Assembly (NCBI GenBank): GCA_031081675.1
Contig: JAVHLZ010000008.1
Location: 47,107 to 90,201, forward strand
From: Armatimonadota bacterium
Lineage (GTDB): Bacteria > Sysuimicrobiota > Sysuimicrobiia > Sysuimicrobiales > Kaftiobacteriaceae
Length of the DNA: 43,095 bases
Reading direction: 5' to 3'
Below are positions 14,452 to 19,088 of this stretch, piece after piece (position 1 is the first letter of the stretch; every line of letters starts with the position of its first letter). The position numbers were made by a program, and so were the translations under genes. The notes under the pieces were generated by a model that saw only the letters and a list, made by a program, of their open reading frames with translations, had not been told where the DNA came from and made no database searches.

Positions 14452-15017
14452 TCGTGGCCATCGCCGGGCCCATCGGCGTCGGGAAGACCACCGTGGCGCG
14501 GGCGCTGGCGGCGCGGCTGGGATACCGGTACATCTCGGGGGGTGTGGTCTTCCGCGCCCTGGCCCGCGAGTGGGGCGTCTCGGTGACCGACATCAACCGC
14601 CTCGCCGAGCAGAATCCCGAGCTGGACCGGGAAGTGGATCGGCGTCAGCGAGAACTGGCCCGGGCGGGGGACTGCGTGGTGGAGAGCCGGCTGGCCGGCT
14701 GGATGGTGGACGCCGACCTGAAAGTGTGGCTGCGGGCGCCCCTGGAGGTCCGGGCCGAGCGGGTCGCCCGGCGGGAGGGCATCCCGCTGGACGCCGCCCG
14801 GGCGGATCTGCTGGAGCGGGAGCGCAGCGAGTGGACGCGCTACCGCCACCTGTACCGCATCGACATCACCGACCTCTCCCCCTACCACCTGATCATCGAC
14901 ACCACCTGCTGGAGCGCGGAGGCCATCGTGGAGGCGCTGGCGGGCCTCGTGCGCGTCCCGTCTCCTTCCGCCCTCCGGGGAGCGCCGGCAGGCGCCGGGG
15001 CCGGAGGCGTCCGATGA
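14448..15017 (+). CDS. cmk: Archaeal-type cytidylate kinase
   Basis: This 189-residue P-loop kinase probably converts CMP/dCMP to the diphosphate using ATP. It starts with the Walker A motif [21 protein letters not shown] and then shows the pattern of archaeal CMP kinases: [50 protein letters not shown], and [23 protein letters not shown]. Bacterial Cmk is longer and different, and guanylate kinase has other motifs. In Bacillus the gene here, between remA and coaBC, is gmk, so one NMP kinase sits where another is expected. ATGA overlaps join it to both neighbours. CMP specificity is inferred from family resemblance. Confidence 0.78.
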
Positions 15018-15574
15018 CCGCCGGCCGGCTGGCGGGACGGGTGGTGGTGGTCGGCGTCACCGGAGGTGTCGCGGCGTTCAAGGCCGCGCACGTGGTCAGC
15101 GGCCTGCGCAAGCTCGGGGCAGAGGTGCACGTGGCCATGACTCCGGCCGCCACACACTTTGTCTCCCCCCTCACCTTCCGCACCCTGTCCCAGCATCCGG
15201 TGGTCACGGAGATGTGGGAACCCGACCTGCCCCATCCCGAGCCCCACCTGTGGCTGGGAGACCACGCCCACCTGGTTGCGGTGGTGCCGGCGACGGCTCA
15301 CACCCTGGCCAAGCTGGCCCTGGGGCTGGCCGATGACGTGGTCGCCGCCCTGGTCCTGGCCACCCGCGCGCCGGTCCTGGTGGCTCCGGCCATGGCGCCG
15401 TCCATGTACGAGCACCCGGCGACCCAGCAGCACCTGCAGACCCTGCGCCAGCGCGGGGTGCGGGTCCTGGGCCCCGTGGTGGGCTGGCTGGCCTCCGGCC
15501 AGGAGGGGATGGGGCGGATGGTGGAGCCCCAGGTCATCCTGGACGAGATCTGCGCGATCCTGGAGCGCCGGTAG
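15014..15574 (+). CDS. CoaC-like flavoprotein lacking catalytic residues and CoaB domain
   Basis: It belongs to the homo-oligomeric flavin-containing Cys decarboxylase (HFCD) family; in CoaBC this domain decarboxylates phosphopantothenoylcysteine. The 186-residue product has the FMN fold (VGVTGGVAAFKAAHV, TPAATHFVSPLTFRTLS), the catalytic-type His78 in PHLWLGDHAHL, and VVPATAHTLAKLALGLADD. Two residues essential in E. coli Dfp are changed: Asn of PAMN is Ala128 (APAMAPSMYEHPAT), and Cys of the substrate clamp is Ser161 (LASGQEGMGRM). The CoaB synthetase domain normally fused after it is absent, and priA follows at once. It may bind FMN in a different role; whether it works in CoA synthesis is doubtful. 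Confidence 0.8.
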   Translation: MTAGRLAGRVVVVGVTGGVAAFKAAHVVSGLRKLGAEVHVAMTPAATHFVSPLTFRTLSQHPVVTEMWEPDLPHPEPHLWLGDHAHLVAVVPATAHTLAKLALGLADDVVAALVLATRAPVLVAPAMAPSMYEHPATQQHLQTLRQRGVRVLGPVVGWLASGQEGMGRMVEPQVILDEICAILERR

Positions 15575-15578
15575 CCGG

Positions 15579-17516
15579 GTGGCTTCCCCGCCGTTTGCCG
15601 ACGTCGCCCTCAACGTTCCCCTGCGGGCCGGCGATCGGGTGTGGACGTTCGCCGTGCCCGAGTCCGTGCGGCCGCACCTGAGAGTCGGAACGGCGGTCTG
15701 GGTCCCCCTGGGACGCGCCCAGGCCCTGGGGTTTGTGGTCCGGTTCACCTCCGCCGCCCCCGCCCGGCCCCGGCCGATCGCCGCCGTGGAAGATCGCCTG
15801 CCGGTCCTTCCCGAGGACCTGGTGGCCCTGGCGTGGTGGATGGCCGAGCGCTACGTGTGCAGCGTGGGCGAGGCGATCGCCGCCATGGTGCCGCCTCCGC
15901 GGGCCGGCCTGCGCCGGCGGTCGGATCCGGCGCCGGTGTATGCCCCCTCCGGGGAACCGTCATCCGGCGATCCCCCGGGCGTGCTGCCCCTGCTGGAGGC
16001 ACAGGGTGCCCGGGTTGCCGTGGTCGGAGAGGAGGGCCGGTTCGACGCCTACGCGGCCGCCGTGCGGGCGACGCTGGATGAGGGCCGGGGGGTCATCGTC
16101 CTGACCCCGGAGGTGGCCCAGGCCGAGCGTCTGGCGCCGTGGCTGGCCAGGCGGGCAGGGGTTCCCGCGGGGCTGCTCACGGGGGCCGTGGGGGACGGCG
16201 CCCGCTGGAGCCTGTGGCGCAGCCTGCTGGCTGGCCACCCGCGCCTCGTGGTGGGCACGCGCCTGGCCGTCTTCGCGCCGGTGCCTGACCTCGGCCTGAT
16301 CGTGGTGGAGCAGGAAGATGACACCTCCTACAAGGAAGAGCGGGAGCCCCGCTACCACGCCCGCGCCGTCGCCGAGGCGCGGGCGGACCTGGCCGGCGCG
16401 CGGGTGGTCCTGGGCTCGCCGGCGCCGTCCCTGGAGGTGATGGCCGCCGTCCGGCAGGGCCGTCTGGCGGCGGTGACGGCGCCAGGGAGCGAGCGCGTCC
16501 CGGTGGTCGTGGCTGACGTCCGCGCCGAGGCGGCGGCCCTGGGCGGGCTTCTGTCCCGCCGCCTGTACCAGGCGCTGGCGCGGACGCTGCCGGCCGGACG
16601 GGCCACCATCTTCGTCCCCCGCCGGGGATACGCCGACTTCCTCCTGTGCCACGAGTGCGGGGCGGTGCCGCGCTGCCCCCAGTGCGGGGTGGCGTACACG
16701 TACCACCGCGAGCGGGTGCGTCCGGCGCCCGCGGTCCGGCTGGCCTGTCACCTGTGCGGCCGCCACGAAGGCGTGCCCGAGGTGTGTCCCGCCTGCGGGG
16801 GTGTGCAGATGCGCCCTCACGGGGTGGGCACCGAGCGCGTGGAGGCCGCCCTCCGCCGGCTGTTCTCGGGCGTGCCGGTGTTTCGCCTCGACACCGAGTC
16901 CGCCCCCACCGAGGAGGCTCAGCAGCAGATCTGGAGCCGGTTCGCGCGGCGCGGCGGCCTTCTGGTCGGCACCCAGCTGCTGGTCCGGGGCGTGGGCCAC
17001 GTCCGGTCCGCCGTGGTGGGGGCCGTGGGGGTGGATGCGGCCCTGCACCTGCCCGACATCCGCGCGGCCGAGCGGACCTACCAGACGCTGGTCCGGTTGC
17101 GGCGCCTGGCCCTCGAGGAGATGATCGTCCAGACGTTTCACCCCACCCATCCGGTCTGGCTGGCCCTGACCCAGGACGACCCCGACCGGTTCTACCGGGC
17201 GGAACTGGAGGCGCGGGAGCGGTTTGGCTATCCACCCGCCCGGCCGTTGATCAACGTGCTCCTGAGCTGCCCGCAGGCGGGTGCGGCGCGGGAGGCGGCC
17301 CAGGTCGTCGCCGACGCCCTGGCCCCCGCCGCAGACGTGCTGGGCCCGTCGCCCGCCCCGGGGGGGCGACGGCGGGGCCGCGTGCGCTGGCAGCTCCTGA
17401 TCAAAGAGCGCGACCCCGCCCGGGCCCGCCGCATCCTGGCCGACCTGCTGACGTCCCGCCGGCTGCCCCGGGCCGTCGCGGTGACGGTGGACGCCGACCC
17501 GCTCGACCTGTTCTGA
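15579..17516 (+). CDS. priA: PriA-like primosomal protein N', helicase motifs lost
   Basis: PriA recognises stalled forks and reloads the replicative helicase. The 645-residue protein keeps the N-terminal DNA-binding domain, the zinc-binding region with eight cysteines (357, 360, 366, 369, 390, 393, 403, 406) and the C-terminal domain. The ATPase motifs are gone: Walker A (GVTGSGKTEVY in active PriA) reads VVGEEGRFDAY at 148-158, the DEEH box reads EQED at 244-247, and motif VI (QVAGRAGR) reads LVRLRRLA. The same state is known for actinobacterial PriA, annotated as probably lacking helicase activity. GTG at 15579 is the only sensible start, four bases after the previous stop. It likely acts as a structural primosome factor. 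Confidence 0.9.
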   Translation: MASPPFADVALNVPLRAGDRVWTFAVPESVRPHLRVGTAVWVPLGRAQALGFVVRFTSAAPARPRPIAAVEDRLPVLPEDLVALAWWMAERYVCSVGEAIAAMVPPPRAGLRRRSDPAPVYAPSGEPSSGDPPGVLPLLEAQGARVAVVGEEGRFDAYAAAVRATLDEGRGVIVLTPEVAQAERLAPWLARRAGVPAGLLTGAVGDGARWSLWRSLLAGHPRLVVGTRLAVFAPVPDLGLIVVEQEDDTSYKEEREPRYHARAVAEARADLAGARVVLGSPAPSLEVMAAVRQGRLAAVTAPGSERVPVVVADVRAEAAALGGLLSRRLYQALARTLPAGRATIFVPRRGYADFLLCHECGAVPRCPQCGVAYTYHRERVRPAPAVRLACHLCGRHEGVPEVCPACGGVQMRPHGVGTERVEAALRRLFSGVPVFRLDTESAPTEEAQQQIWSRFARRGGLLVGTQLLVRGVGHVRSAVVGAVGVDAALHLPDIRAAERTYQTLVRLRRLALEEMIVQTFHPTHPVWLALTQDDPDRFYRAELEARERFGYPPARPLINVLLSCPQAGAAREAAQVVADALAPAADVLGPSPAPGGRRRGRVRWQLLIKERDPARARRILADLLTSRRLPRAVAVTVDADPLDLF

Positions 17517-17583: not shown

Positions 17584-18081
17584 GTGAAGATCGTCACCGT
17601 CGACAGTCCCCAGGGGGCCGTCCTCCGGCGCCGCGCGCGGCCCGTCGGGCGGGTGACCGAGCAGGTGCGCGCGTTGATGGACGAGATGTTCCTGACCATG
17701 CGCGCGGCCGGGGGGATCGGCCTGGCGGCTCCGCAGGTGGGCGTCGGCCTGCGGGTGATCGTGGCCGAGGTGGACCGCCGCCGGGTGGCGCTGGCGGATC
17801 CTGTCATCGTGCGGGCCGAGGGCCAGGAGGTGGGGACCGAGGGCTGCCTGTCCATCCCCGGGGTGGTGGCCGAGGTCCCCCGCGCCGCCCGGGTGACCGT
17901 CCGGGGGAAGAACCGGCGCGGGCGCGGTGTCACCGTGACCGCCGAGGGGCTATTGAGCCGCGTGCTCCAGCACGAGATCGACCACCTGGACGGGATCCTG
18001 TTCCTGGACCGGGTGGTGGACCGGTCGACGATCCGCCAGGTGGGACAGACGGCCGAGGTGGAGGCCGCCGTCTCCGGATGA
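17584..18081 (+). CDS. def: Peptide deformylase
   Basis: Def removes the formyl group from the N-terminal methionine of new proteins. The 165-residue metalloenzyme has all three family motifs: GIGLAAPQVG, EGCLSIPG with the metal-binding Cys, and QHEIDHLDG with two metal-binding His and the catalytic Glu. The GTG at 17584 gives the common N-terminus KIVTVDSP. There is no Shine-Dalgarno sequence, but a -10 hexamer ends nine bases upstream. It overlaps fmt by 4 bp (ATGA), so deformylase and formyltransferase are made together, as in Bacillus. Confidence 0.95.
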   Translation: MKIVTVDSPQGAVLRRRARPVGRVTEQVRALMDEMFLTMRAAGGIGLAAPQVGVGLRVIVAEVDRRRVALADPVIVRAEGQEVGTEGCLSIPGVVAEVPRAARVTVRGKNRRGRGVTVTAEGLLSRVLQHEIDHLDGILFLDRVVDRSTIRQVGQTAEVEAAVSG

Positions 18082-19088
18082 CCCCCTCCTCCGCCGCCGG
18101 CTCGGGCCGGCTGCGCGTGGTGTTCTTCGGCACTCCGCAGTTTGCGGTTCCCTCCCTGCAGGCCCTGGCGGCGGAGGCCCACGTGGCCGTCGTGGTCACC
18201 CAGCCGGACCGACCCCGGGGCCGCGGCCGCGTGGTGGAACCTCCCCCGGTGGCCCGGGCCGCGCGGGACCTGGGTCTGCCGGTGATGCAGCCCGTCCGCC
18301 TGCGCGACCCCCAGGTGGTGGAGCGGCTGCGGACGGCGGGGGCGGACCTGCACGTCACCGTGGCATACGGGCGGATCATTCCGCCGGAGATCCTCGCCCT
18401 GCCGCCCCGCGGCAGCATCAACGTGCACCCTTCCCTCCTCCCGCGCCACCGGGGGGCCTCGCCGATCCAGGCGGCCCTCCTGGCCGGGGACGCCGAGACC
18501 GGCGTGACGGTCCTGTACCAGACCCCCGAGATGGATGCTGGAGACATCATTCTTCAGCGCCGGGTGCCCATCGCGCCGGACGACACGGCCCGCACCCTGG
18601 AGGCCCGCCTGGCCCGGGAGGCGGCGGAGGCGCTGGTGGAGGCGGTGCGCCTGATCGCCGCCGGGACAGCCCCGCGGCGGCCGCAGGATCCTGCGGCGGC
18701 CACGTATGCCGGCAAGTTGCGCAAGGAGGACGGCCGCGTGGAGTGGACGCGCCCCGCCGTGGAGCTGGCCCGCCTGGTGCGCGCCATGGATCCGTGGCCG
18801 TCCGCGTTCACCTGGCACCGGGGGCGGCTGCTGAAGATCTGGCGGGCACAGCCGGTGGAGGCCTCCGGCCCGCCGGGCACCGTGGTGGAGGTGCGCCCGG
18901 GCGACGGAATCGTGGTGGCCTGCGGACAGGGCGGGCTGCTGATCACCGAGGTGCAGCCCGAAGGACGGCGGCGCATGACGGCCGACGAGTACGTGCGGGG
19001 CAGCCGCCTGGCGGCGGGGGAGCGGCTGGGCGAGGGTGCGGGAGCGCTGGACGAGGGGAACGCGGGAACGCGGGCGTCTCCCGGATAG
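18078..19088 (+). CDS. fmt: Methionyl-tRNA formyltransferase
   Basis: Fmt formylates Met-tRNA-fMet using 10-formyl-tetrahydrofolate, so that translation can start. The 336-residue protein has VVFFGTPQFAVPSLQAL at the N-terminus, the folate-site motif SLLPRHRGASPIQAAL, the EMDAGDIILQ segment, and the C-terminal OB-like domain that holds tRNA. The C-terminal 20 residues (EGAGALDEGNAGTRASPG region) are low-complexity and unlikely to be structured. ATG at 18078 overlaps the def stop. No frame disruption is seen. Confidence 0.95.
   Translation: MTPSSAAGSGRLRVVFFGTPQFAVPSLQALAAEAHVAVVVTQPDRPRGRGRVVEPPPVARAARDLGLPVMQPVRLRDPQVVERLRTAGADLHVTVAYGRIIPPEILALPPRGSINVHPSLLPRHRGASPIQAALLAGDAETGVTVLYQTPEMDAGDIILQRRVPIAPDDTARTLEARLAREAAEALVEAVRLIAAGTAPRRPQDPAAATYAGKLRKEDGRVEWTRPAVELARLVRAMDPWPSAFTWHRGRLLKIWRAQPVEASGPPGTVVEVRPGDGIVVACGQGGLLITEVQPEGRRRMTADEYVRGSRLAAGERLGEGAGALDEGNAGTRASPG

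Follow-up and report, generated by a model that had tools for sequence, protein, structure and literature searches.

A putative PriA pseudohelicase in Candidatus Sysuimicrobiota, whose single order holds intact, half-decayed and fully decayed PriA motors

The window (the whole stretch of 43,095 nucleotides that was analysed) carries a priA gene whose product is very probably a PriA pseudohelicase, i.e., an ATP-independent scaffold for fork recognition that reloads DnaB by PriA contact, probably with DciA, and whose motor was lost inside its own phylum, a loss that does not go back to the ancestor of the actinobacterial or Deinococcus pseudohelicases. Replication restart usually begins with PriA. 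Most bacteria have conserved its helicase, although E. coli survives without the helicase activity.

The gene occupies positions 15579-17516 of the forward strand, on which all features below also lie, and forms an open frame of 645 amino acids with a GTG start and a TGA stop ending at 17516. Its membership in the PriA family was indicated by the Pfam domains PriA_3primeBD (PF17764; 7.4e-20, 71 bits against a cut-off of 22.7) and PriA_C (PF18074; 3.9e-13, 50.5 bits against a cut-off of 26.9), by two lobes of SF2 type into which a zinc region of eight cysteines is inserted, and by a score of 360 bits with the curated equivalog TIGR00595 (priA, NCBIfam), above the cut-off of 230.35. Among solved chains, phmmer matched it to Klebsiella PriA 4nl4 (1.5e-75). 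The canonical profile PRK05580 scored 420 bits, below its own cut-off of 813, and the actinobacterial profile PRK14873 reached 185 bits (cut-off 812), which places the protein outside the actinobacterial family. The genome is 97.8% complete, and a TIGR00595 search for a second PriA found none, the window copy being single. The other placeable matches were weak and partial (53 and 33 bits) and lay in frames of 1117 and 806 amino acids, which are Mfd-like and RecG-like, as judged from match position and size.

Alignment with intact relatives confirmed that Walker A, the DEEH box and motif VI are altered, as first described, and that the zinc cysteines and both ends of the protein are intact. The 3'-DNA-binding domain (3'BD; residues 8-105; 15600-15893; PF17764) and the C-terminal domain, including GRVRWQ (CTD; residues 548-645; 17220-17513; PF18074), are retained, and all eight cysteines of the zinc region (Cys 357, 360, 366, 369, 390, 393, 403, and 406; 16647-16796) are kept. 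Motif I, or Walker A (residues 150-159; 16026-16055), which reads GVTGSGKTEVYL in the intact relatives, is decayed to GEEGRFDAYA; Arg154 takes the Lys position, and the P-loop (GEEGRF) is shortened by two residues and has no Lys. Motif II (residues 244-247; 16308-16319) has changed from DEEH to EQED (in context, from DEEHE to EQEDD), and motif VI (residues 506-513; 17094-17117) from QVAGRAGR to RLRRLALE, without either of its arginines. The Walker A GKT, DEEH and motif VI arginines of an active helicase are thus absent, and replacement of the Walker Lys together with retained DNA-binding domains is the pattern of the D. radiodurans-type pseudohelicase. The wording that all helicase motifs are gone holds for motifs I, II, and VI and not for the rest of the core, in which motif Ia (LTPE), VGTR, the PRYHAR block past motif II (residues 257-262; 16347-16364; invariant in the window's family, f1, and in intact relatives), the motif III-like GSPAPSLE, VPRRGYA (motif IV), and VGTQ (start of motif V) are still present. 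The same motif state recurs in nine other genomes of family f1, one of them represented by a fragment without motif I, and assembly errors were therefore ruled out as the source of the altered motifs.

A short linker (residues 106-144; 15894-16010), of low confidence in the AlphaFold2 model, stands in place of the winged-helix stretch. The distance from the 3'-binding domain to lobe 1 is 37-52 residues in f1 versus 180-187 in intact relatives; therefore, the winged-helix domain, another feature of the active helicase, is absent from the window protein. The frame is open, as the first-pass annotation had it, but the length is not normal, as the winged helix is missing.

The AlphaFold2 model of the window protein has a confident PriA fold (pLDDT 91.5, pTM 0.93). 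Foldseek returned PriA structures on top, the best over both lengths being 6dcr (TM 0.80/0.81), an E. coli PriA with an engineered winged-helix deletion and retained motor motifs; the window protein has lost both naturally. At the P-loop site, strand 145-149 of the model leads through a loop of four residues into a helix that starts at R154. From the motif loss, the protein is almost certainly incapable of hydrolysing ATP in the usual way, in agreement with the original reading; the acidic residues of motif II are partly left, and weak nucleotide binding may persist. The proposal that ATP is still bound or hydrolysed through a rebuilt non-canonical pocket, so that the protein would remain a slow motor or would sense ATP, could draw on the new motif-II-like sequence (mostly DHEED) and the invariant Arg-Phe at the P-loop, both conserved in f1. 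It is nevertheless highly unlikely, given the P-loop that is two residues shorter and has no Lys, the lost motif VI arginines, and the position of motif I among the least conserved parts of f1 PriA.

Between f1 and the intact family f5, the drop in conservation is concentrated at motif I (identity of 0.55 vs. 0.97) and motif VI (0.57 vs. 0.91), while the 3'-binding domain (0.62 vs. 0.57), the C-terminal domain (0.56 vs. 0.55), motif IV (0.93 vs. 0.80), and PRYHAR (1.00 vs. 1.00) are at or above the f5 level. Pairwise dN/dS values were 0.10-0.18 in f1, 0.12-0.19 in the intact f5, and 0.23-0.32 in f2 and f4. The f1 values are no higher than in the intact relatives, which shows that the protein is in use; the earlier statement that it is kept is borne out by this purifying selection. 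That the gene is a pseudogene in the course of being lost is very improbable: degraded motifs I and VI, the higher dN/dS of f2 and f4, and the f6 gene lying across two frames in its assembly would fit such a fate, but the frame is open in every full-length f1 member read, the f1 dN/dS is low, the zinc cysteines are invariant, the DNA-binding domains are conserved, and the predicted fold is confident. In the f6 locus (L203, G041:C26, approximately 560-1580), priA has its 3'-binding domain in one frame and its helicase core in another; either the assembly is wrong here or the gene is truly split or broken.

The gene order Dfp-priA-def-fmt is common to intact and decayed families wherever the contig permits. 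In the window, priA is preceded by a flavoprotein gene (CoaC/Dfp half; 15014-15574) and followed by def for peptide deformylase (17584-18081) and fmt for methionyl-tRNA formyltransferase (18078-19088), the ATG start of which overlaps the def stop. The exceptions were one f2 locus (G002) in which all three neighbours went undetected and three f2 loci in which no Dfp was found. The flavoprotein gene encodes a CoaC-like half of CoaBC (about 186 amino acids) that stands alone beside priA, with no adjacent CoaB half. Scans for promoters, terminators, and repeats in the surroundings of priA gave nothing of weight.

The host phylum, CSP1-3, now Candidatus Sysuimicrobiota, comprises one class and one order (PMC11604079). 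It was sampled here by 43 genomes from that order in seven families, with the window genome in f1. The PriA motor is intact in f5 (7 genomes; GVTGSGKTE, DEEHE, QVAGRAGRG), and motifs V and VI are kept in f7, as read from the single fragment seen. In f6 (one genome), the motor is half decayed, with GLLEGEKTE and DEEHD yet QLAGKTGG, and in f1, f2, and f4, motifs I and VI are lost wherever readable. Arg replaces the Walker Lys in 27/27 decayed proteins of the phylum with readable motif I, and the first motif VI arginine is gone from every one of these 27; the eight zinc cysteines are found in 37/37 proteins. From the 3'-binding domain to lobe 1 there are 180-187 residues in f5, 82-111 in f2, 46-108 in f4, and 37-52 in f1.

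The RpoB tree places f6 first, followed by (f1,f2) and (f4,(f5,f7)), with a support of 98 for f4 with f5/f7. The PriA tree built without the motif columns also places f6 first, followed by f5 with f7, and unites f1, f2, and f4 (96/96 for f4 with f1/f2). AU tests rejected neither of the two arrangements (p of 0.29 and 0.10), and one to three motor losses within the phylum are therefore possible. Even without the motif columns, the intact f5/f7 proteins cluster with their own phylum and not with a donor (80/97); this position and the shared locus argue against recapture from outside. The motor was lost inside the host phylum, separately from the published Deinococcus case.

Samples from other phyla extend this picture. 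The Actinomycetota sample, drawn from the phylum of an Aquicultoria genome, comprised 119 genomes, of which 51, as counted here, have a PriA matching from Walker A onward; most others start well past it. In all 13 decayed Actinomycetota proteins read, motif I is missing and motif VI is changed, though DEEH is kept in some, and early Actinomycetota have kept an intact PriA. The Nitrospirota sample, from the phylum of a Nitrospira-labelled MAG (G046), gave 36 intact proteins, 15 divergent proteins matching from Walker A, and 36 starting past Walker A, as counted here in 100 genomes. In 15 of the last 36 that were read, the motifs are absent from all, and two sequence types occur (e.g., VEGEEDPSLKE and VLNEHSPSFKG). 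Among the decayed Nitrospirota proteins (L221-L231, L236-L238, and L240), one type is about 750-810 amino acids long and the other about 610-670. GxTGSGKT is kept in all five of the 15 divergent proteins that were read. This Walker-A-positive group (L232-L235 and L239; about 15/100 genomes) has GxTGSGKTRxYQ and QLAGRVGRH. No motor decay was detected among the 81 genomes of the control phylum (Ammonifex), 80 of which match from Walker A, the other being a fragment.

In the PriA tree of all rows, decayed proteins of several phyla group together. This clustering would be expected if the decayed state were old and had come down from an ancestor in common with actinobacterial or other pseudohelicase PriAs, the intact f5/f7 copies having been regained later by transfer; it can also arise from long branches and shared decay. 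Such a history is very unlikely, as the f5/f7 proteins stay with their own phylum when motif columns are removed and keep the same locus, RpoB sets the decayed hosts apart, and the PRK05580 score lies far above that of PRK14873. In the RpoB tree, decayed Actinomycetota lie within Actinomycetota and the Nitrospira-labelled genome elsewhere. With the hosts apart and the canonical profile scoring higher than the actinobacterial one, parallel loss across phyla is the best reading of the sequences. An intact PriA at the same locus in f5, and the intact PriA of early Actinomycetota, indicate that the losses in both phyla are separate. The first-pass annotation had thus asked the right question in setting an old shared state against parallel loss, although no state is shared with Actinobacteria.

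It is likely, with somewhat less assurance than the assignment of the window protein itself, that bacteria have dropped the PriA motor several times (in this phylum, in Actinomycetota, in two Nitrospirota types, and in the published Deinococcus-Thermus case), often with a Walker Lys-to-Arg change and a shortened N-terminal half, and that one order showing all three states of the motor, from intact through half decayed to fully decayed, allows permissive factors to be mapped. In the open-access literature searched, PriA pseudohelicases are described for Deinococcus-Thermus only, with no report for the host phylum or Nitrospirota.

As to how restart might proceed, the 3'-binding domain, zinc region, remaining core, and C-terminal domain would hold abandoned forks and SSB-coated DNA, with the dead motor lobes retained as a rigid body. 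PriA would thereby mark the fork and help DciA to reload DnaB through a PriA-DnaB contact, and lagging-strand clearing, if required, would fall to another helicase. We infer the loss of ATPase activity, the partnership with DnaB and DciA, and any unwinding by another helicase. The claim that restart in this organism must work without PriA unwinding was accordingly worded too firmly and leaves room for such a helicase. DciA is a DnaB loader in other bacteria (PMC9825169) and was detected in 40/43 genomes of the phylum, including the window genome. Its presence did not separate intact from decayed families among the 43 genomes; since it also occurs in intact families, DciA alone does not explain the motor loss. 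DciA scores of most f5/f7 genomes were 26-49 bits versus about 49-68 in families with decayed PriA; one f5 genome reached 63. The main SSB of the genome ends in EGDDDVPF, with the acidic tail DDDVPF. A second SSB-domain match in the genome (L242; G000:C8:10069-10371) falls within a long frame whose upstream part is of low complexity.

That the motor has been lost repeatedly while the DNA-binding parts stayed suggests that PriA is indispensable for recognising forks and not for unwinding them. Within a single order, the motor is found intact, half decayed, or lost, which supplies matched proteins for studying the role of the motor and its replacement.

The window protein resembles canonical PriA (E. 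coli and Klebsiella 4nl4; PRK05580) in domain order, zinc region, 3'-binding domain, and C-terminal domain, and differs from it in that Walker A, DEEH, and motif VI are all unusable. With actinobacterial PriA (PRK14873), it shares a short length (about 610-670 amino acids in several lineages) and the loss of motifs I and VI, but it belongs to a separate lineage, as the 185 bits with PRK14873 and 420 with PRK05580 indicate. A parallel in kind is D. radiodurans PriA, which has the same Lys change and binds forks and DnaB without ATP hydrolysis; in E. coli PriA, the Lys-to-Arg change alone abolishes ATPase activity (PMC4504706). Both the D. radiodurans protein (PMC4504706) and the window protein have Arg for the Walker Lys, a degraded motif II, and retained DNA-binding parts. 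The latter comes from another phylum, has in addition a shortened P-loop and neither the motif VI arginines nor the winged helix, and is known here from sequence. To the kind of PriA already described in Deinococcus, the present data add a loss that is local to the phylum, graded between its families, and repeated in other phyla.
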